Positions 17,133-30,197 of a stretch of 48,401 nucleotides of DNA are shown piece after piece. The position numbers were made by a program, and so were the translations under genes. Source of the stretch: an uncultured Trueperaceae bacterium (GTDB lineage: Bacteria; Deinococcota; Deinococci; Deinococcales; Trueperaceae); the NCBI GenBank assembly GCA_913062675.1, contig CAJXWR010000005.1, forward strand, positions 1-48,401. Reading direction: 5' to 3'. Numbering within the stretch: position 1 is the first letter of the stretch; each line of letters begins with the position of its first letter. The notes under the pieces were generated by a model. The model was not told where the DNA came from. It did no database searches and saw only the letters and a list, made by a program, of their open reading frames with translations.

Positions 17133-18596
17133 CTACATGCCGGCCATGATGGCCATGCGCGCCCCATCCACCAGACCGAACCACAGGTCGGGGAACAGAC
17201 CCATGGCCACGGTGCCCGCCGCAGCCAACGCGATGGCCCAGCTTGCAGGCGCGCTGCGTTGCGGCTCACCCTTGCCGCCCCGCGCGAACCATATCGCCCA
17301 GATGAAACGCGTGTAGTACACGACCGCGACGACCGCAGCGAGGAGCGCGAGAACGGCCAGTTCGGACCAGCCCGCCTCGAACGCCGCCTGCACGGCAAGC
17401 GCCTTCCCGAAGAACCCGGCGAGCGGCGGGAAGCCAGCGAGACTGAAGAGGAACAACGACATGGCAATGGCCAGACCAGGACGCTTACGCCCAAGCCCTT
17501 CCCACGACTCGATGTGATCGCCATGCGGGTCGTTACCCATCACTTCGCTGAGCACGGCGAAGGCGCCCCCGTTCATCAGGGTGTACGCCAACAGGTACCA
17601 GACGACCACCGTCGGGGTGGCCATGCCCTGCCCCACGGCGAGGACGGCAAGACCAAGGTAGCCGGCATGCGCGACGGCGCTGTAGGCAAGCATGCGCTTC
17701 GCGCCACTCTGCAGCAGGGCACCGAGGTTGCCGATGACGAGCGTCAGCGCGATGAGAACCGCGAGCATCGTGTCCATCGTGGGACGCGCAGCCGGCCACG
17801 CCTCGCTCGCGACGCGCATGAGCGCACCGAACGCAGCGACCTTCACCACGACGCTCATGAACGCCGTGACGGGCGTCGGCGCACCGGTGTAGACGTCGGG
17901 CGCCCACTGGTGGAACGGAGCGAACGAAACCTTGAACGCCAGGCCGACGAGCACCAACGCGCCGCCGAGCAGGGCGAGCACGCCACCGGAACCGTCCGCA
18001 AGCAGCGTGCCAATCTCCGCGAACGTGAACGAGCCACTCGCACCGTAGGTGAGTGCCATGCCGTACACGAGGATGGCGGAGGCGAAGGCTCCGAGCAGGA
18101 AGTACTTCATGCCCGCCTCCTCGCTTCCATGCTCCCCCGTCCGCCAGGCGGAGAGGGCGTAGACGGAGAGCGAGAGGATCTCGAGGCCGAGGAGCAACAC
18201 CACGAAATCACCAGCGTGGAGCATGACGACGGCGCCCATCGTGGCAAGCAGGATGAGGGGGTAGTACTCGGGTCGGTCCATGCCGGTGCGTTGCACCGCA
18301 TCCCAGCCAGTTAGGATGGCGAGGAACGCGCCTACCAGGACGGCGAGCACCATGCCCGCCGAGGCGGCATCCACGCTCCATTGAAGACCGAACGCCGTGA
18401 ACGGTTCGCTGCGCGCGGCCAGCAGGTTCATCACGCCCAGCACGCCGGCAGCGAGCAGGCCGAGGAACGCCAACGCGCCCCCGTTGCGTGCGTCCCGCGT
18501 GACGGTACTCACGATCAACCCGACCGACGCGGCAATCAGCAGCGCGAAGGCGGGCGCAATGGCCGTCAAACCGATGTTGTCGGGTGCGACGATCAT
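17133..18596 (-). CDS. nuoN: NADH-quinone oxidoreductase subunit N
   Basis: 487 residues, about 14 membrane segments, one of the three antiporter-like proton-pumping subunits of complex I. Family marks: ALVLVGLAFKVSFAPFHQWAPDVY (by its key part, FKVSFAPFHQWAPDVY about 235-250) with the functional lysine and histidine, GVPTPVTAF-like GAPTPVTAFMSV, and the tail LAGFPPLAGFFGKAL. Last gene of the operon; its start overlaps nuoM by 4 bases (ATGA). The operon terminator follows. Confidence 0.95.
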   Translation of the reverse strand: MIVAPDNIGLTAIAPAFALLIAASVGLIVSTVTRDARNGGALAFLGLLAAGVLGVMNLLAARSEPFTAFGLQWSVDAASAGMVLAVLVGAFLAILTGWDAVQRTGMDRPEYYPLILLATMGAVVMLHAGDFVVLLLGLEILSLSVYALSAWRTGEHGSEEAGMKYFLLGAFASAILVYGMALTYGASGSFTFAEIGTLLADGSGGVLALLGGALVLVGLAFKVSFAPFHQWAPDVYTGAPTPVTAFMSVVVKVAAFGALMRVASEAWPAARPTMDTMLAVLIALTLVIGNLGALLQSGAKRMLAYSAVAHAGYLGLAVLAVGQGMATPTVVVWYLLAYTLMNGGAFAVLSEVMGNDPHGDHIESWEGLGRKRPGLAIAMSLFLFSLAGFPPLAGFFGKALAVQAAFEAGWSELAVLALLAAVVAVVYYTRFIWAIWFARGGKGEPQRSAPASWAIALAAAGTVAMGLFPDLWFGLVDGARMAIMAGM

Positions 18597-20050
18597 CGTT
18601 CACCTCCCAGCGCCAGCGAGGGTGGAATGGGTGCCTCGACCTGCGTGACCACCGCCACGCTCGCCGTCGCCTCGATGCGGTCCACCTGTGGTGCGGGCGC
18701 CAACCCGAGCCACAGGATGCCCGCCACGATCGGCGCGAGGATCAGCACGTCGAGACCCGCCACGTCGGAGCGCCGCTCCCCGGCCGGGCCGAGGAACAAC
18801 CGCTGATAGGTGTTCACACCGTACACGCCGGCGGCCACCACGCTCCCCAAGGCTGCGACGACGCCCAGCCATGGCGTGGCTTCGAACGCACCCAAGAGGC
18901 TCAGGAATTCACCCGGGAAGTTCGACAAGCCCGGCACGCCAATCGCAGCGAAGAGCGTGAACAGGAACAACGCCGCGAGTGCGGGTGCGCTCTTCGCCAA
19001 GCCACCAAAGGCATCGAAATCGAACGTGCCTGCCCGGTCGTGCAGCATGCCGGAGGCGAGGAACAACCCGCCGGTGCTGATCATCTGTGCGGCGAGGAGG
19101 AACATCGCACCGGTCAAACCGAACGTCGTCATGGAGAACACGCCGACGCCCACGACGCCCATGTGCGAGAGCGACATGTACGCCAGCATGGACTTGAAAT
19201 CCTTCTGCTGCGTCGCAGCCAGGCCACCCCACAACGCCGTGACGGCGGCCAGAGTGAGGAGCAGCGGTTGGAACGCCGCTGCGCCATCGGGCAGCAGCGG
19301 GATCGCCCAGGCGAAGAACCCGAAGCCACCCACCTTGTAGAGCGTGCCGCCCACGTCCGCGACGCCCGACGGGTGGTTCTGGCGGTGAAAGTCGATGAGC
19401 CACGAGTGGAGCGGGAAGAGCGGCAGCTTCACGGCGAATGCGGCTGCGAACCCGGCGAACAACCAAGTTTGCACCACGACGTCGAGCTCGCGGGTGGCGG
19501 GCAGCAGGTCGACGAACGCGTAGCTCGCCGCACCACTGAGCGGCCGTAGGGCGAGAATCGACGCGAGCATCAGGAACGAGCCGGTGATGGCGTACACGAG
19601 GTACTTCGTCACCGCGCCACGGCGATGCTCCCCACCGAACAACCCGAGGAGGAACAGGCTTGGAATCAGCGTCGCCTCCCAGAACACGTACGTGACGATC
19701 AGGTCGGTCGACAGGAACAGGCCGTTGAGCGTCGTCTGCATGAGAAGCAGCAACGCGAGGAACGTGTTCCTTCGGTCCGCACCCAGACGACTCGCCGCGA
19801 TCAGGGTCGGCACCATCGTCAACGCCGCCGCGATCACCAGGACGGAGCGCACGCCACTCGGGTCGAAGGCGAACTCCGCGCCCAGCGCCGGTAACCAGGC
19901 GAGGGACACGGAACCCATGTTGGGCAGGAACACGGCCATGACGAACGTGGCGATGCCCGACACCAGGGCGCCCGCCACGGCCAGACGACCGGGCAGGAAC
20001 CACGCGAGTGCGGCCCCGAGGAGCGGGAGGGCCAACGCGAGAAGGGTCAT
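18593..20050 (-). CDS. nuoM: NADH-quinone oxidoreductase subunit M
   Basis: 485 residues, antiporter-like membrane subunit with about 14 helices. Visible: YVFWEATLIPSLFLLGLFGG, containing the conserved glutamate of helix 5; AVKLPLFPLHSWLIDFHRQN with the channel lysine and histidines; SLSHMGVVGVGVFSMT and SNFPGEFLSLLGAF. Each antiporter-like subunit is thought to translocate one proton. Coupled to nuoL and nuoN by 4-base ATGA overlaps. Confidence 0.95.
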   Translation of the reverse strand: MTLLALALPLLGAALAWFLPGRLAVAGALVSGIATFVMAVFLPNMGSVSLAWLPALGAEFAFDPSGVRSVLVIAAALTMVPTLIAASRLGADRRNTFLALLLLMQTTLNGLFLSTDLIVTYVFWEATLIPSLFLLGLFGGEHRRGAVTKYLVYAITGSFLMLASILALRPLSGAASYAFVDLLPATRELDVVVQTWLFAGFAAAFAVKLPLFPLHSWLIDFHRQNHPSGVADVGGTLYKVGGFGFFAWAIPLLPDGAAAFQPLLLTLAAVTALWGGLAATQQKDFKSMLAYMSLSHMGVVGVGVFSMTTFGLTGAMFLLAAQMISTGGLFLASGMLHDRAGTFDFDAFGGLAKSAPALAALFLFTLFAAIGVPGLSNFPGEFLSLLGAFEATPWLGVVAALGSVVAAGVYGVNTYQRLFLGPAGERRSDVAGLDVLILAPIVAGILWLGLAPAPQVDRIEATASVAVVTQVEAPIPPSLALGGER

Positions 20051-21984
20051 GAGCGCACCCCCAACCAGGCGACGACGAGCACGAGGATCGCCGCCCCTGC
20101 ATACATGGCGTACGCGTAGGCGCGTACGAAACCGTTTTGCAGCAGCGCAGCGATGCGACCGAGGAAGCCAAGGGCGGCACCGAAGCCGAGCAGGCCACGG
20201 TCCACCACGTCACGATCGAGCACCGTGACCGCCTCGGCACTGCCTTCCGCGCCACCAATCACGACGGTGCGGTACGCCGCGTCGAAGCCCAGGCCACTGC
20301 GCGACAGGGCCGCGAGGGGTCCCTCAGCCAGGCTGCGAACCGGCTCACCCTCCCGCGAGGCGTACACCCACCAACCGAGCGCGAGGCCCACGACCGCCGC
20401 TGCGACCGACACGCCGATGAGGGTCCACTCGACCCACACCGCTGGGTGGTGGAACGGGACTTCCGTCAAGCCGCCAAGGGTGGCTTGATCGAGCCAGGGG
20501 TAGATCCAGTTCGGGAACGCGAACTTCGGCAGGCCGACGTAGCCCGCCACGACGCTGAAGAAAGCGAGGATGGTGAGCGGCACGGTCATGGTGAGCGGTG
20601 ACTCGTGCACGTTCGCCTCGACCTTCGCGTCCATGCGGCTCTCGCCACCGAAGATGCCGTAGTACCAACGGAACATGTAGAAGGCGGTGAGGACCGCCGT
20701 GACGAGCAGCACGCCGTACAGCGCGGTCGTGCCGAACCCCTCGACGTGCATCGAGGTGAGCGTGTACACGAGGATGGCGTCCTTGCTGAAGAAGCCGGAC
20801 AGGAACGGGACGCCCGCGATGGCGAGGGTGGCGATGAGGCTCGTCGTGCCGGTGATCCGCATCTTCGCGCCAAGCCCACCCATCTTGCGGATGTCCTGCT
20901 CGCCGCCCAGCGCGTGAATGACCGAACCGGAACCGAGGAACAGCAGGGCCTTGAAGAACGCGTGGGTGAAGACGTGGAAGATGCCGACCCAGTACGCGCC
21001 CACGCCCACGGCAACGAACATGAAGCCGAGCTGGCTGATCGTGGAGTAGGCGAGGATCTTCTTGATGTCGGTCTGTCCGAGGGCGGCGAGTGCGGCGATG
21101 AGTGCCGTGGCGGCACCCACCCAGGCCACGACTGCGGACGCGAGCGGCGTCATGGCGAACAGCGGCGCCGTCCGGGCAATGAGGTACACGCCCGCGGTCA
21201 CCATCGTCGCGGCGTGAATCAATGCGGAGACGGGCGTGGGGCCCGCCATCGCGTCGGGAAGCCACACTTGCAGGGGCAACTGCGCACTCTTGCCCGTCGC
21301 AGCGAGGAGCAGCAAAAGGCCGATGAGGGCGAGCATGCCGGAACCGAACGCCATGGTGACCGCCTCGGCGTTCACCTCGGCGATGGTGAGCGTGCCGAAC
21401 ACGCCAACCATGAGGAACATGGCGAACATGAGGCCAAGGTCACCAATACGGTTGACGATGAACGCCTTGCGGGCCGCATCGGCGTTCGCCTTGGTGGCGT
21501 ACCAGAAGCCGATCAGCAGGAACGAGCTCACCCCCACCCCTTCCCACCCGACGAACATGAGCAGGAACGAGTCGGCCAACACGAGGATGGACATGGCGGC
21601 GACGAACAGGTTGAGCAGCGCGAAGTACCGCGCGTAACCGGCATCGCCGTGCATGTAGCCCATCGAGTACAGGTGTATCAACGTGCCCACGCCGGTGATG
21701 ACCAGCATCATGAGCACGCTGAGCGGGTCGATGACCGCACCGATCGACAGGTCGAGACCCGCCAGGTTCAGGTACGGCCAGACGGTCACCGCCACGGTCG
21801 GGTCGTCGCGACCTTGCAGCGCAACGAAGGCGATGAGCGACAAGACGAACGCACCGGCCGCCACGAGCGTGGCGAGGATGCCGGGGAGGGGCTCCTTGAG
21901 CGCCCGTCCGAACAGGCCGTTGATCAGGGCACCGGTGAGCGCCAGCGCGGGCGCGAAGATGAGCCAGGCAGCGGGATCGGTCAC
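20047..21984 (-). CDS. nuoL: NADH-quinone oxidoreductase subunit L
   Basis: 645 residues, largest antiporter-like subunit. Besides the core helices it has the C-terminal lateral helix (HL) region expected to run along the membrane arm, here about residues 500-645. Marks: FVGWEGVGVSSFLLIGFW with the conserved glutamate, GKSAQLPLQVWLPDAMAGPT with channel residues and PTPVSALIHAATMVTAGVY. Overlaps nuoK and nuoM by 4 bases each. Confidence 0.96.
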   Translation of the reverse strand: MTDPAAWLIFAPALALTGALINGLFGRALKEPLPGILATLVAAGAFVLSLIAFVALQGRDDPTVAVTVWPYLNLAGLDLSIGAVIDPLSVLMMLVITGVGTLIHLYSMGYMHGDAGYARYFALLNLFVAAMSILVLADSFLLMFVGWEGVGVSSFLLIGFWYATKANADAARKAFIVNRIGDLGLMFAMFLMVGVFGTLTIAEVNAEAVTMAFGSGMLALIGLLLLLAATGKSAQLPLQVWLPDAMAGPTPVSALIHAATMVTAGVYLIARTAPLFAMTPLASAVVAWVGAATALIAALAALGQTDIKKILAYSTISQLGFMFVAVGVGAYWVGIFHVFTHAFFKALLFLGSGSVIHALGGEQDIRKMGGLGAKMRITGTTSLIATLAIAGVPFLSGFFSKDAILVYTLTSMHVEGFGTTALYGVLLVTAVLTAFYMFRWYYGIFGGESRMDAKVEANVHESPLTMTVPLTILAFFSVVAGYVGLPKFAFPNWIYPWLDQATLGGLTEVPFHHPAVWVEWTLIGVSVAAAVVGLALGWWVYASREGEPVRSLAEGPLAALSRSGLGFDAAYRTVVIGGAEGSAEAVTVLDRDVVDRGLLGFGAALGFLGRIAALLQNGFVRAYAYAMYAGAAILVLVVAWLGVRS

Positions 21985-22310: not shown

Positions 22311-22897
22311 GATGCGTCCTCGACGACGGGCGGCATGGGCGGCACCTCAGGCGGCATGTGGCCCGCCTGCCCGGCCGCGGCTCGCGCCTTATCCGTCTCG
22401 GTGGCGCGCTGCTGCACGAGACCGACGGCAGCCACGATCCCCGTGAGGAGAAGCACGCCGACGAGGTGGAACGAGAGGAGGAACGGCCCGAACAACTGGT
22501 CGGCCACCTGCTCCACACCGCTCCCTTGGAAGACGGCGGCGATGGCGGCCGTATCGAGTGCGGGACCCGGGTTCGCGACCAGGGCGGCAGCGACGCCTGC
22601 AATCACGAGACCGCCGGTGATCCAGGCGGCGGGCCGGATCCACGGTTGCGTCGGCGCGGGGGCCTCACCCCCGAGGTTGAGCAGCATGATGACGAACAGG
22701 AACAACACCATGATGGCGCCCGCGTACACGATCACTTGAATCGCGGCGAGGAACGGCGCGTTCAACACCACGTAGGCAATCGCCAGCGTGAGCAGCGTCC
22801 CAACGAGCGACAGGGCAGCGTGCACCGGGTCGCGAAGCAACACGACGCCGAGGGCACCCACGAGCATCACGGTCGCGAGGACGGCGAAGACGAGCAT
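22307..22897 (-). CDS. nuoJ: NADH-quinone oxidoreductase subunit J
   Basis: 196 residues, five membrane helices. Marks: LRDPVHAALSLVGTLLTLAI, and FLAAIQVIVYAGAIMVLFLF, the pi-bulge helix 3 region that gates the link from the quinone site to the membrane arm. I start at ATG 22897, which overlaps the nuoI stop as TAATG; the longer open frame upstream is inside nuoI and not protein-like. The C-terminal tail is Pro/Val-rich (GHMPPEVPPMPPVVEDAS). Confidence 0.93.
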   Translation of the reverse strand: MLVFAVLATVMLVGALGVVLLRDPVHAALSLVGTLLTLAIAYVVLNAPFLAAIQVIVYAGAIMVLFLFVIMLLNLGGEAPAPTQPWIRPAAWITGGLVIAGVAAALVANPGPALDTAAIAAVFQGSGVEQVADQLFGPFLLSFHLVGVLLLTGIVAAVGLVQQRATETDKARAAAGQAGHMPPEVPPMPPVVEDAS

Positions 22898-23424
22898 TAG
22901 TAATCCACGCCTTCGAGTTCGGGTCTCGGTCCGGCCTGGAAACCGAGTTCCACCTCGCCACCCTTGCGTTCCGCCTCGCGGCGTTGCCACTTCGAGCCCT
23001 TCACGCCAACGAGCATGTCCTCCTTGCCGTACACGAAGTGGTCGTAGCGGAAGTCGGCGAGTTCGAACTCGTGACCGAGGACCACCGCACCGGTGGGGCA
23101 CGCCTCTTCGCAGAAACCGCAGAAGATGCAACGCAGCATGTTGATCTCGTAGATCGACGCGTAGCGCTCGCCCGCACTCGTGGGGTCATCGGGATCGTTC
23201 TCGGCCGCCTCGACGTAAATCGCGTAGGCGGGGCAGGCGGCGGCACAGAGGCTGCAGCCGATGCACTTCTCGAGGCCCGTGTCGGGGTGACGCAACAGGT
23301 GGTGGCGTCCCCGGAAGCGCGCTTGAATCTGCGCCTTCTCCTCGGGGTACTGCACGGTGACCGGTTTCTTGAAGAGGTGGGACAGGGTGACGCCCATCCC
23401 CTTCGCAACGTTCAGAATGCTCAT
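22897..23424 (-). CDS. nuoI: NADH-quinone oxidoreductase subunit I (8Fe ferredoxin-like)
   Basis: 175 residues, peripheral-arm subunit with clusters N6a and N6b. Two motifs are visible: [20 protein letters not shown] and [17 protein letters not shown], each CxxCxxCxxxCP, at about residues 58-77 and 105-121. N terminus [20 protein letters not shown] is the membrane-contacting amphipathic helix. Start ATG 23424 with GAGGGGG upstream; a 72-base gap separates it from nuoH, the largest gap in the operon. Confidence 0.96.
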
Positions 23425-23496: not shown

Positions 23497-24510
23497 TTAG
23501 AGAACAAAGGCGATCACCGCCCCCGTCAGCAAGGCTGCACCCAACGCGATTTCGAAGAGCCACACCCAACCGAAGCGCATGAGTTGGTCGTAGCGCATGC
23601 GCATCAGCGAGGCTTGCAGCCAAATGAACACCCCGAGCAGCAGGACGATCTTGAGGATCAGCCAGATGAACGGCCATTCACTCATTCCGGGGATCAGCAG
23701 GTCGAAGAAGGCGGGGCCCTTGTAGCCACCGAGGAACAGCGTGGCGATGATGGCCGACGCGTTGATCATGCCCACGTACTCCGCCATGAAGAAGAGCGCG
23801 AACTTGAGGCTCGAGTACTCGGTGATGTAGCCGGCCACGAGTTCCTGTTCCGCCTCGGGCAGGTCGAACGGCACGTTGCTGACCTCGGCCGTGGCGCTGA
23901 TCCAGAAGGCGAAGAGGGCCACGATGAGGCCGGGCCACAACCAGGGGCTGACCGACCAGACGTTCAATTCCACGATCTCGCGCAGGTTCAGGGTCCCGGC
24001 GATCATGATGACCGAGAGGACGGAAAGTCCGAGACCGAGTTCGTAGCTGATGATCTGCGCGCTCGAGCGGAGCGAACCGAGCAGCGAGTACTTGCTGTTG
24101 GCAGCCCAGCCGCCGAGGAAGATGCCGTACACGCCGATCGACGTGGTGGCCAGCACGTAGAGCAGGCCAATGTCGAGATCGAGGATCCACGGGTCGAGCC
24201 CGAAGAAGGAGTTGGCGGGACCGGCAGGAATCGCGCCGAAGGTGACGAGCGCGAAGACGACGCTGATGCCGGGCGCGAGGATGAACACGAACTTGTCGGC
24301 GCGCGTCGGCGTGACGTCCTGCTTGAAGATCATCTTGATCGCGTCGGCGATGGGTTGCAGCAGGCCGAACGGCCCGGTGCGGTTCGGTCCGAGGCGGTGC
24401 TGGAAGCGTCCCAGCAACCGGCGTTGATACCAGGTGAGGTAGGCGAATCCGCCGAGCAACAGGACGCTCATGACGAACGCCTTGAGGAAGATCACCCAGA
24501 GGGGATCCAT
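23497..24510 (-). CDS. nuoH: NADH-quinone oxidoreductase subunit H
   Basis: 337 residues, eight membrane helices, forms the quinone chamber and links the arms. Marks: RFQHRLGPNRTGPFGLLQPIADAIK (by its key parts RLGPNRTGPFGLLQP and ADAIK, about 35-58), GWAANSKYSLLGSLRSSAQ and PFDLPEAEQELVAGYITEYS, the acidic loop of the E-channel. Its start directly follows the nuoG stop with no spacer. Confidence 0.97.
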   Translation of the reverse strand: MDPLWVIFLKAFVMSVLLLGGFAYLTWYQRRLLGRFQHRLGPNRTGPFGLLQPIADAIKMIFKQDVTPTRADKFVFILAPGISVVFALVTFGAIPAGPANSFFGLDPWILDLDIGLLYVLATTSIGVYGIFLGGWAANSKYSLLGSLRSSAQIISYELGLGLSVLSVIMIAGTLNLREIVELNVWSVSPWLWPGLIVALFAFWISATAEVSNVPFDLPEAEQELVAGYITEYSSLKFALFFMAEYVGMINASAIIATLFLGGYKGPAFFDLLIPGMSEWPFIWLILKIVLLLGVFIWLQASLMRMRYDQLMRFGWVWLFEIALGAALLTGAVIAFVL

Positions 24511-26976
24511 CTACGCCACCTCCGCCGTTGCACTGCGCTCCCGCACCATCGCAGCGAGGTTGGCGTCGTAGAGGCCCACCGGTTGCTCGGGCAGGGTGGG
24601 AGCGAGCCACAAGCCTTCGGGCACCCCCTCGCTGGCGGTGACGCGAAGTTGGCGCGGAATCCCGCCAATGGGGAGGGTAACCACGTCGCCGCTCGTGAGT
24701 CCGTGCGCATGGAGCGTGGCGGGGTGCGCGCGCAGTGCGGCGTCGCCCCGTTCGGCCCGGAGGTGTGGGTTGCGGTCGAGGTGCTCGACGCGCACCATGC
24801 TCGGCACGATGAGCGCATCGCCGGTCGCGCGGGCGTACTCGCGTACGGCGCGGGCGCCGCTCGCCTTGCCGCGCACGGGGGGAAGCGGCTGGCCGGTGGT
24901 GGGGAGTTCGGCGGCATCGACGTCGAGGAGTTTCCGCAAGACGCGGCGCGCACTCTTGACGCTGCGGCCCTCGAGCCGCGTGCCGAAGGCTTCCCCGAGC
25001 TGCTTGACGACACCCGTGAAATCGGTTGCGGTGCCTGCCTCGACCGGTGCAGCGCGCACCGGAAGGAGGCGACCTTCGACGTTCAGGGTGGTGCCGTCCT
25101 TCTCGTAGCCCGTCACGGCGGGCAGCACCACGTCGGCGAGCGCACTCGTGGCGGTGGGGAAGGCCGCATGGACGACGAGCAGGTCGAGTTCACGGAGCCG
25201 GTCGGCGACCTTCGGGTCGACGGCAGGATCGAGGCTCGCGAGGAACAACGCCTTGGTTTCCGGCGTGAACATCGAGGCGTAGTCGTACCGGTCGTGGCTG
25301 GGAAGCACGCTGATGCGCTCGAGGCCGGCCGTGTTGGCCATGGGCCCGAGAATGAGCGTCTTGGCGCCCACGCTCTTCGCGAAGGTGCGGGCGGCCTCGT
25401 CGGCGCGTGGGTCGTTGGAGACGAACGCACTCCAAATCATGACGCCACGGGTGCTGCTGCGCATGCGGGTGATGAGCGCGTCCGCCTCGGCGGCGGTCAT
25501 ACCGAGCGCGTCGTCCCAGGCGCCGCTTGGCGTGCCGCCGTCGACCGTGGCGCTCGCCCGTTCGGCCAGCGCGTGGAGCAGGTCGACCATCGACGTGGCG
25601 GGCGGCACGTGTGCCTGCCCGGCGTGCTTCATCAGGTCCGTGCGATACGGCGCGCAAATCGTGAGGATTTCACGCTTGCGGGGCATGCGTTCCTTGAGGC
25701 GCAAATCGGCGATGGCGGGACCGTGCGGGAAGAGGGGTGCGGGCTCGACGCCCTTGAGCGCATCCTTGATGCGCAGGTCGACGATGCCGGCCTCCTCGGT
25801 CGGGTCGCCCACCACGAACAGGGCGTCACTCGTTGCAACGTCACGCAGCGTGGCGGCCGCCCCGTCGGGCAGGACCGACGCGGCGGGCCTGGGCGCGGTG
25901 TCCAACCGGCCGCTGCCGAGGTGATCGGCGAGCGCCTTCGCGGCGACGCCCTCCTCGAGGGTCGCGTCACCGCGCAGGGCGATACCGATGCGGGTGCCGT
26001 CCATCCCAGCGATCCGTTCGGCAATCTCGCGCGCAGCGTCCGCCCAGGTGGTCTCCACCAGCGTGCCGTCGCGTCGCACCATGGGTCGCGTGATGCGGTC
26101 CTCGGCATCGGCGTACTCATGCCCGAAGCGGGTGCCATCGTCAATCCACGTCTTGTTCACGTCGTCGTTGAGGCCCGCCTTGATGCGTTCGATGCGGCCC
26201 GTGCGGGTGTCGATGCGAAGCGCAGCGCCGGACGGGTCGTCGAGGCTCGTGGTGTCGGTGTGGTGGTACTCCCAGTTGCGGCCGCGGAAGCGGCTGGTCG
26301 TGTCGAGCAGCGCGCCGACCGGGCAGATGTCGGTGATGTTGCCGGTGAAGGGGCTCGGCAGGCCATCCTCGAGCGTTCCGATGTACGTGTGGCCGCCCCG
26401 CTCGATGAAGTCGAGCACCTCGTCGCCGGGCACCTCTTCGAAGTAGCGGACGCAGCGCTTGCAGTGAATGCAGCGCTCCCGGTCGAGGGTGATGAGTTCG
26501 CTCAGGGCGTGGTGCTTCTCCTGGTGCCGCTTGTCGAACACGAAGCGGCTCTCGCCACTGCCGTACTCGTAGGCGCGGTCCTGAAGTTCGCAGGCGCCGC
26601 CCTTGTCGCACGTGGGGCAGTCGAGCGGGTGGTTGACGAGCGTGAACTCCACCATGGCGTTTTGCGCCTTCTTGACGTCCTTGGAGATCGTGTCGACGAC
26701 CATGCCCTCCATGACTTGCGTGGTGCAGGTGGCCATGGGGTTGGGGAACCAGAAGATCTTGGGTTCGCCGGTCTCCTCGTCGAGGATCCAGTCGTTCGTG
26801 GCGCGGTCCTTGCGGGGGGCACCGATCTTGGCGAGGCACATGCGGCACGCGCCGATGGGGGACATGTACTCCTGGCTGCAGAAGTAGGGCACGTCGTGCC
26901 CCGCGGCGAACACGGCATCGATGACGCTCGTGCCAGGCGTGACGTCGAGCTCGACCTCGTTGACCTTGATCTTCAC
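24511..26976 (-). CDS. nuoG: NADH-quinone oxidoreductase subunit G, lacking N7 cluster ligands
   Basis: About 821 residues, peripheral-arm electron conduit. N-terminal ferredoxin domain with N1b cysteines (YFCSQEY ... [11 protein letters not shown] ... MATCTTQ), His-cluster N5 ([15 protein letters not shown]) and N4 (CIHCKRC ... [10 protein letters not shown]) are complete. The extra cluster N7 present in Thermus and E. coli is lost: [15 protein letters not shown] and [11 protein letters not shown] stand where T-T-C-x2-C-x3-C and WICDxGRF are expected, so all four cysteines are replaced. The molybdopterin-oxidoreductase-like domain follows. GTG 26976 overlaps the nuoF stop as GTGA; GTG 26985 (three residues longer, with GGAAGG upstream) is an alternative start. 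Confidence 0.95.
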
Positions 26977-28313
26977 GACTGCCACCGGTCCTTCCGTGGG
27001 TGCAGCGGCGTGCCGTGCTGCGCGAGGTGCTCGTACTCGTTGCGGAAGTACTTGAGGCTGGTCTGGACGGGCCAGGCGCAGGCGTCGGCGAGGGGGCAGA
27101 AGGCGGTGCCGCGCAGGTTGGACACCATGTCCTCCATCAGGTCGACGTCCTCGGGCGTCCCGAGTCCCGCGAGGAGTTTCTGGAACATCTTGGGAAGCCA
27201 GGTGCTGACGCCCTCACGGCAGGGGGTGCACTTGCCGCAAGACTCGTGCGCGTAGAAGCGGGTCACGTTGTACATGGCGTCGACGATGCACTGATCCTCG
27301 GGAATGACGATGAGTCCGCCGGTGCCCATCATGCTGCCGGCCTTGGCGACCGCGGCGTACTCCATGGGCAGGTCGAGGTGCTCGTCGTCGAAGGGGAACA
27401 GCGGGCAGGAGGTACCGCCAGGGATGAACGCCTTGGCGGGTCCCTTGGGTCCACCCGCGAGGTCGAAGATGATTTCGCGGTAGGTGATGCCCATGGGGAC
27501 TTCGAACACGCCGGGGCGGTTCACCGCACCACTGATTTGCACGTGGTGAATGCCCTTGCTGTCGTCGGTGCCCATGGCGGCGTACCAGTCGGCGCCCTTT
27601 TCGATGATGTGCACGGCGGAGGCGAGGGTGGTGACGTTGTTGATGGTGGTCGGCAGTCCGTACACGCCGGCTTGCGCGGGGAAGGGCGGCTTGAGGCGCG
27701 GGTTGGCGCGCAGGCCTTCGAACGAGTTCATGAGCGCGGTTTCCTCGCCGCAGATGTACGCGCCGGCTCCGCGGTGCAGGATGACGTCGAAGTCGAAGCC
27801 GCTGTCCATGACGTTCTCACCGAGGTAGCCGCGCTGGCGCGCCTCCTCGATGGCGTCGCGCAGGCGTTCGTAGGCGTGGTAGTACTCGCCGCGAATGTAG
27901 AGCACGCCCTTCGTGGCACCGATGGCGTACCCGGCGATCATCATGCCTTCGAGCAGTTGATGGGGATCGTCCTCCATGAGGTACCGGTCCTTGCAACTGC
28001 CGGGCTCGGACTCGTCGGCGTTGCAGACGACGAAGCGTTGCCGCCCGTCGACGGGCGGCATGAACGACCACTTCACGCCGGCAGGGAAACCGGCGCCACC
28101 GCGACCGCGCAGGCCGGATGCCTTGACGAGGTCGACGACCTCGCTGGGTTCCATGCCGAACGCTTTCTTCGCGGCGCCGTACCCACCGTGCGCGAGGTAC
28201 GCGTCGAGGGTGTGGGCGCCTTCGACGCCGACGTACTTGTAGAGCGTGACTTCGAAGCGCGGGTCGTGGCGACTCGTGATCGTGTCGGGCTTGTCGGCAA
28301 CCGCACCGCTCAT
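26973..28313 (-). CDS. nuoF: NADH-quinone oxidoreductase subunit F
   Basis: 446 residues, NADH-binding flavoprotein with FMN and cluster N3. Visible: [20 protein letters not shown] (NADH/FMN glycine loop, about 69-88), [33 protein letters not shown], and N3 ligands in [16 protein letters not shown] with the fourth cysteine in [14 protein letters not shown]. Oxidises NADH and passes electrons to N3 and onward through NuoE/G. Overlaps nuoE (ATGA) and nuoG (GTGA). Confidence 0.97.
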
Positions 28314-28966
28314 GCCGCACCTCCTTCGGGGTTCTCAGGCTCGGCGGCTTCCGCGTCGGCGAGGGCAGCGTCGGCTGCCGTGCCGGCCTCGAACGCTTCG
28401 CCGGCGAGGGGTGCAGCACCAAGCTGCGCATTGTCACCTTCGCGTGCGCGTTTGGGGGTCGGCATTTCGCCGCGGCGGAGGGCGTCGAGGAGCGCGTCGA
28501 GCTCGTCGCGGGTGACGCGCTCGTAGTACGTGTCGTTGACCTGAAGGACGGGCGCCGTGGTGCACGACCCGAGGCACTCGACCTTCTGCAGGCTGAAGAG
28601 GCCCTCGGTGTCGGTTTCGCCGGGCACGAGACCCAGGCTGTCCTCGAGGTGATCGCACATCTCGTCGCTGCCGGCAAGCTTGCAGCTGAGCGTGCTGCAC
28701 ACCTGCAGGTGGTACTTGCCGACGGGTTCGCCGTGGTACGTGCTGTAGAAGCTCATGACGCCGCGCACCTCGGTGGCGGTGAGCCCGACGATCTCGGCGA
28801 TTTCGACGATGCGCGCTTCGCTGACGTAGCGTTCGTGCCGTTGCACCTCCCACAGGAGAGGCATGACGGCGCTGCGGCGACCGTACTCGGGGTAGCGACC
28901 GAGAATCTCGTCGAGCACGTCGGGCTTGTCCTCGAAGTACGGGCGTATGGTGTTGAGTTCGATCAT
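28310..28966 (-). CDS. nuoE: NADH-quinone oxidoreductase subunit E
   Basis: 218 residues, thioredoxin-like [2Fe-2S] subunit with cluster N1a. Ligands: VCSTLSCKL (C-x4-C) and [12 protein letters not shown] (C-x3-C), both complete. The core ends near residue 165; the rest (about 165-218) is a low-complexity Ala/Glu/Gly tail such as [20 protein letters not shown], longer than usual for this subunit. Seven bases after nuoD, overlapping nuoF. Confidence 0.96.
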
Positions 28967-28973
28967 CGCACCC

Positions 28974-30197
28974 TCACTTGTCGACGTCCCCCATGACCGG
29001 GTCCATGGTGGCGATGTTGACGACCATGTCGGCGAAGGTGCCGCCGATGCTGGCCGGTTCGATGGCTTGCACGTTCACGAGGCTGGGTGTGCGCACCTTC
29101 ACGCGGTACGGCATGCTGCCCCCGTCACTGACGAGGTAGTAGCCGAGTTCGCCACGTGCCGATTCGGTGGGGACGTACACCTCGCCCATGGGCGGGTGGA
29201 AGCCTTCGGTGACGAGTTTGAAGTGGAAGATGACGGCTTCCATGCTCGTTTCGAGCTCGTGGCGTTCGGGCAGGCTGATGCGCCGGTCGGGATCCTTGAT
29301 GGGGCCCGGTTCGAGCCGGACGAGGGCCTGCTGGACGATGCGGAGGCTCTGCTCCATCTCGCGCGCGCGGACGGCGAAGCGTTGCTCCGCGTCGCCCTCC
29401 TCGGCCATGGGAACCTCGAAGTCGTAATCCTCGTAGCCGCTGTAGGGTGCCGCCTTGCGCACGTCGTAGTTCACGCCGCTCGCGCGGGCGGAGGGGCCGG
29501 TGAGGCCCACCTCGAGCGCCGTGTCGCGGGTGACGACGCCAGCACCGCGCACGCGGTTCACCCAGATGGGGTTGTCGGCGAACATGGCGAGGTACTCCTC
29601 GAGGCGGGCGGGGAATTCGTCGATGAAGGCTTGCACCTTTTCTTCGAATCCCTCGGGCAGGTCGCGGGAGAGGCCGCCGACGCGGAAGTAGCCGTAGTTC
29701 ATGCGGACGCCGCTGACCATTTCGAGGATGTCGAGGATCTTGTCGCGTTCGCGCATCGTGTAGAAGAACGGGGTGAGCGCGCCCATGTCGAGCAGGCCGG
29801 TGCCGAGCCCGAGCAGGTGGCTCGCGATGCGGTTGAGTTCGGTGAGGAGCACGCGGATGCGTTGTGCGCGTTCGGGGACGCGGGCGTCGAGGAGTTTCTC
29901 GGCTGCGAGGACGTAGGCGAGGTCATGCCCGAGCGCATGGGCGTAATCCATGCGGTTCGTGTAGGTGACCACCTGCTGCCAGGTTCGGTTCTCCATGGTC
30001 TTCTCGAAGCCGGTGTGGAGGTACCCGATGCGGGGCGCAACACCCATGACGGTCTCACCGTCGAGATCGACGACGAGGCGCAGCACGCCGTGCGTGGCGG
30101 GGTGCACCGGCCCGACGTTGATGCGCATGAGTTTCGTGGAGAAGTCTCCCGACCGCTCCTCGTGGAGCACCTGCGCACCGTGTGGAAGGTCGCTCAT
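28974..30197 (-). CDS. nuoD: NADH-quinone oxidoreductase subunit D
   Basis: 407 residues, 49-kDa subunit homologous to hydrogenase large subunits; forms the quinone site with NuoB and NuoH. Marks: [20 protein letters not shown] with the beta-hairpin histidine, [27 protein letters not shown] with the quinone-site tyrosine, and C-terminal [10 protein letters not shown]. The hydrogenase metal cysteines are absent as expected. ATGA overlap with nuoC. Confidence 0.97.

Follow-up and report, generated by a model that had tools for sequence, protein, structure and literature searches.

Probable loss of the off-path iron-sulfur cluster N7 from complex I of a Trueperaceae bacterium and patchy occurrence of N7 in Deinococcota

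The [4Fe-4S] cluster N7 of complex I lies about 20 Å off the electron path (PMC7613608), is probably an evolutionary vestige (PMC10212512), and is homologous to FS0 of NarG (PMC5123574). It is not needed for electron transfer, and its loss leaves activity intact while destabilising the solubilised Escherichia coli complex (PMC5123574). N7 has been described as a vestige of some bacteria only, but the E. coli complex suffers when it is lost. The closest described counterpart of the NuoG studied here is Nqo3 of Thermus thermophilus (structures 2fug and 4hea), which is the same subunit with the same fold and other ligands, and is the best match by both sequence and structure. It differs in that all four N7 cysteines are present, together with the glycine that accompanies them. 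The homologous E. coli NuoG provides the ligand columns C228, C231, C235, and C263 and, unlike our protein, also has N7.

NuoG without N7 is already known, from mitochondria. In the mitochondrial and alphaproteobacterial 75 kDa subunit (NDUFS1/NuoG), the same four ligands are gone; ligand 2 is Asp, and the remaining positions hold small residues. In sheep complex I, Asp229, Asp232, Ser236, and Ser264 occupy the ligand positions and three waters replace N7 (PMC8357420). The NDUFS1-type subunit belongs to a separate lineage, and the set in our protein differs, reading Ser/Asp/Ala/Asp.

The nuo operon and the N7 site of its NuoG

We analysed a stretch of 48,401 nucleotides from an uncultured Trueperaceae bacterium, referred to as the window. 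Its nuoG gene (24511..26985, minus strand) encodes 824 amino acids from a GTG start and was the sole NuoG match in a search of the genome. The start proposed in a reading of the sequence alone, position 26976, is indeed an in-frame GTG, overlapping the nuoF stop, but the open reading frame was called from the GTG at 26985. The protein scored 484.5 bits against NCBIfam profile TIGR01973 (cut-off, 470.05) and aligned with Thermus Nqo3 (2fug) over nearly its whole length (E value, 3.9e-173). The gene lies between nuoF and nuoH, and the nuo operon is intact around it. On the minus strand, the operon includes nuoL, nuoM, and nuoN for the three antiporter-like subunits (17133..21984), nuoI (22897..23424) with all eight N6a/N6b cysteines, nuoH (23497..24510), nuoF (26973..28313) with the N3 ligands C359, C362, C365, and C406, nuoE (28310..28966) with the N1a ligands C90, C95, C131, and C135, and nuoD (28974..30197). 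The expected cluster cysteines are also present in NuoB. A long PF00384 gene on contig C8 was considered as a second NuoG and rejected; its product carries a twin-arginine signal. A short PF00384 match was also found on contig C76. Elsewhere in the same genome, a gene for a molybdopterin oxidoreductase that has a twin-arginine signal was noted (locus L001, 1078-3699, plus strand).

Residue-by-residue alignment with Thermus Nqo3 showed that TTCALCPVGCGI is replaced in our protein and that WICD has become WIDD. The absence of all four N7 ligands, first noticed from the letters of the window, was thereby confirmed. Ligand position 1, a Cys in Thermus (E. coli C228), is Ser247 (26245..26247, minus strand, as for all residues below). 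Position 2 (E. coli C231) is Asp250 (26236..26238), position 3 (E. coli C235) is Ala254 (26224..26226), and position 4 (E. coli C263) is Asp282 (26140..26142). The protein therefore lacks the C-x2-C-x3-C motif and the distal Cys of N7-bearing NuoG. It also lacks the Gly three residues past ligand 4, a criterion derived in this study and so far unpublished: Thr285 (26131..26133) stands where every N7-bearing sequence examined has Gly. With four ligands absent and Asp at ligand 2, the site agrees with the N7-less, mitochondrial kind. A sequencing error was considered and rejected, as every other N7-less Trueperaceae locus shows the same kind of replacement.

The rest of the subunit is conserved. 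The ligands of the [2Fe-2S] cluster N1b (C36, C47, C50, and C87; 26725..26880), of N5 (H119, C123, C126, and C132; 26590..26631), and of N4 (C172, C175, C178, and C221; 26323..26472) are intact, as the sequence-only reading had stated, and these twelve columns were invariant in an alignment of 40 Deinococcota sequences. Its further statement that the surrounding fold is kept also held, since a Foldseek search with the AlphaFold2 model returned Thermus Nqo3 as the best match. The model has block-mean pLDDT values of 66 to 85 in the N7 segment, is poor for residues 118-239, and gives no site detail. A salt bridge of this domain has been described (PMC5123574). Arg297 (26095..26097), in the column of E. 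coli NuoG R278 and Arg in 57/57 sequences, was assigned as its arginine by analogy, its spacing from ligand 4 being that of NarG R108 from its own fourth ligand. The glutamate corresponds to Glu628 (25102..25104), in the column of E. coli NuoG E615 (Glu in 54/56). The bridge assigned in this way, R297-E628, is kept.

Very probably, then, the operon encodes a normal complex I (proton-pumping NADH:quinone oxidoreductase) in which the off-path [4Fe-4S] cluster N7 has been lost from NuoG. The complex is most likely functional and of a known kind, minus one non-essential cluster, and by analogy the Trueperaceae site most likely works like the sheep site. It is very unlikely that the acidic residues Asp249, Asp250, Asp282, and Asp283 bind another metal ion in the cluster's place. 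Such binding would suit the Asp or Asn found at ligand 2 in all N7-less Deinococcota and the Asp that N7-less Trueperaceae have at ligand 4 (see below), but positions 1 and 3 show no constraint on the residue, and waters are reported at the sheep site (PMC8357420), where ligand 2 is likewise Asp.

Distribution of N7 and residues accompanying its absence

A NuoG search of all 111 Deinococcota genomes of our set gave matches in 108. These and 19 named loci yielded an alignment of 128 rows, our protein included, in which some genomes appear twice. All four ligand positions were covered in 125 rows; two rows lacked the segment, and one showed the fourth position only, as Cys. Four N7 cysteines were present in 33 of the 125 rows and none in 92, while no row had one to three; the rows are loci and not independent events.

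Families and genera are given here by working codes (f for families, g for genera), and we use Thermus-like, Meiothermus-like, and Truepera-like as inferred labels. N7 cysteines were found in the Thermus-like genus f5-g30 (27 genomes), in its sister genus f5-g31, and in the three f2 genomes with data. Within Trueperaceae, all four are present in genome G100 (genus g13). The nuoG of G096 (g10) is truncated and misses its first part, and the remainder shows the fourth Cys and the Gly in WLCDGGRF. The cysteines are absent from all other Trueperaceae with data, from the Meiothermus-like genera f5-g27, f5-g28, and f5-g29, and from families f3 and f4; some f4 genomes share the mitochondrial set Asp/Asp/Ser/Ser. 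Two points of the earlier reading did not survive this mapping. A simple contrast with Thermus fails in view of the other N7-less groups, and absence is not an event special to the window's genome but an ordinary, nearly family-wide trait of Trueperaceae, shared with mitochondria. What is added here is that N7 is unusually patchy within one phylum, Deinococcota. Close pairs with and without N7 exist (Thermus-like versus Meiothermus-like genera, and g13 versus Truepera-like genomes), so the role of N7 in stability and its replacement can be tested between near relatives. Literature searches that covered a small part of the subscription papers gave no publication on N7 in Meiothermus, and none of the papers found for Trueperaceae and complex I treats the absence of N7 in its title or abstract; an earlier description may exist.

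Five columns separated the two states completely when 9 N7-bearing and 47 N7-less Deinococcota representatives were compared: the four ligands and the Gly after ligand 4. All 92 N7-less rows have either Asp or Asn at ligand 2. Ligand 4 is Asp in every N7-less Trueperaceae sequence and never in other N7-less Deinococcota. Ligand 1 (S, T, G, A, or D) and ligand 3 (S, A, T, or Q) vary. Among 70 NuoG sequences from Pseudomonadota, 31 had the four cysteines with the Gly, and the set was absent from 39, of which 38 had Asp at ligand 2. The sole exception, locus L269, has a lone Cys at this position (S-C-S-S), possibly a remnant of N7; in two other N7-less sequences, a single Cys is present, at ligand 3. 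The Gly is kept in 3 of the 39, and its link to N7 is thus not absolute outside Deinococcota. In a tree of the N-terminal part, the 39 sequences formed two clades, indicating few events. The recurring rule, by which all ligands go together, Asp or Asn takes ligand 2, and the Gly is usually gone, shows how a protein can dispense with a cluster and still retain its fold.

Several loci of the set deserve mention. No NuoG match was obtained at the limits used in G101 (g14), G008 (f3, g23), and G079 (g4), which have either lost complex I or are incompletely assembled at this place. The matches L115 (G061), L106 (G065), and L109 (G089) contain a TGA or are split over two frames, owing to sequencing error or a broken gene. 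A genome recorded as Lysobacter sp. (G111; loci L219 and L221; also L023, JAHCAU010000002.1) holds a Trueperaceae nuoG, with an N7 segment identical to those of L007 and L033, alongside a second NuoG of another kind. The Trueperaceae gene is probably on a misbinned contig.

Loss versus gain of N7

The sequence-only reading had also proposed that N7 was lost after having been present. Relatives of the same family still have the N7 cysteines, which makes loss from an N7-bearing ancestor the best reading, although the trees alone leave the matter undecided. With relatives aligned and cysteines mapped on trees, our protein had no Cys at any N7 position, whereas g13, and g10 by its fourth Cys, keep theirs. 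In a tree of rpoB and rpoC, g10 and g13 grouped with the N7-less, Truepera-like genus g16 (support, 99), and the three genera were together in a tree computed without nuoG from eight further subunits of the nuo operon (support, 100); their order was not settled in the concatenated tree. One genome of g16, G108, consists of just one contig, 3,260,398 bases long. Because g10 and g13 group with N7-less Truepera-like genomes, the loss is placed inside Trueperaceae. The ancestor would have had N7, which may have been lost within the family once or twice.

Counting changes does not by itself separate loss from gain. Loss without regain requires five losses on the concatenated tree, where unordered parsimony needs fewer changes; on the nuoG tree, unordered parsimony gives 3. 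The likelihood of the tip states was -12.79 (lnL) for gain only and -14.28 for loss only, so that gain was ahead by about 1.5 log units. The outgroup branches, which include the N7-bearing Acinetobacter and Phyllobacterium, were too long to root the family in the nuoG tree. On these counts, the ancestor of the phylum, or that of Trueperaceae, could have been without N7, and Thermus, f2, and g10/g13 could have acquired or reacquired it. The ligand-4 Asp shared by all N7-less Trueperaceae fits such a history, as does the Leu-Asp between the first two cysteines of G100, which resembles its N7-less relatives. We nevertheless regard it as unlikely. Each gain demands five matching residues at homologous sites, and N7 is old, being homologous to FS0 of NarG (PMC5123574) and frequent in Pseudomonadota. 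Removal of the N7 columns left the N7-bearing sequences inside their own families in the nuoG tree. Import of an N7-bearing nuoG into G100 was considered and rejected: the gene is Trueperaceae-like throughout, with no closer donor in any window along it. Finally, a topology holding g16 with the other N7-less Trueperaceae, which permits a single loss, was not rejected with nuoG left out (p-AU, 0.163).

Two further observations count against the preferred loss from an N7-bearing ancestor. As PMC5123574 relates, citing Pohl 2007, loss of N7 destabilises the E. coli complex; loss is therefore not free in every background. In addition, the uniform ligand-4 Asp suits a single loss at the Trueperaceae stem followed by regain. 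That N7 was lost at this stem and that g13 (and g10) restored it at the original site seems to us rather improbable. If true, it would be a case of a four-Cys iron-sulfur cluster regained after complete loss; to our knowledge, evolution is usually assumed not to regain such a cluster.

Thermophily was rejected as a driver of the distribution. Family f4 and the Meiothermus-like genera, which we take to be thermophiles from their inferred group names, are without N7.
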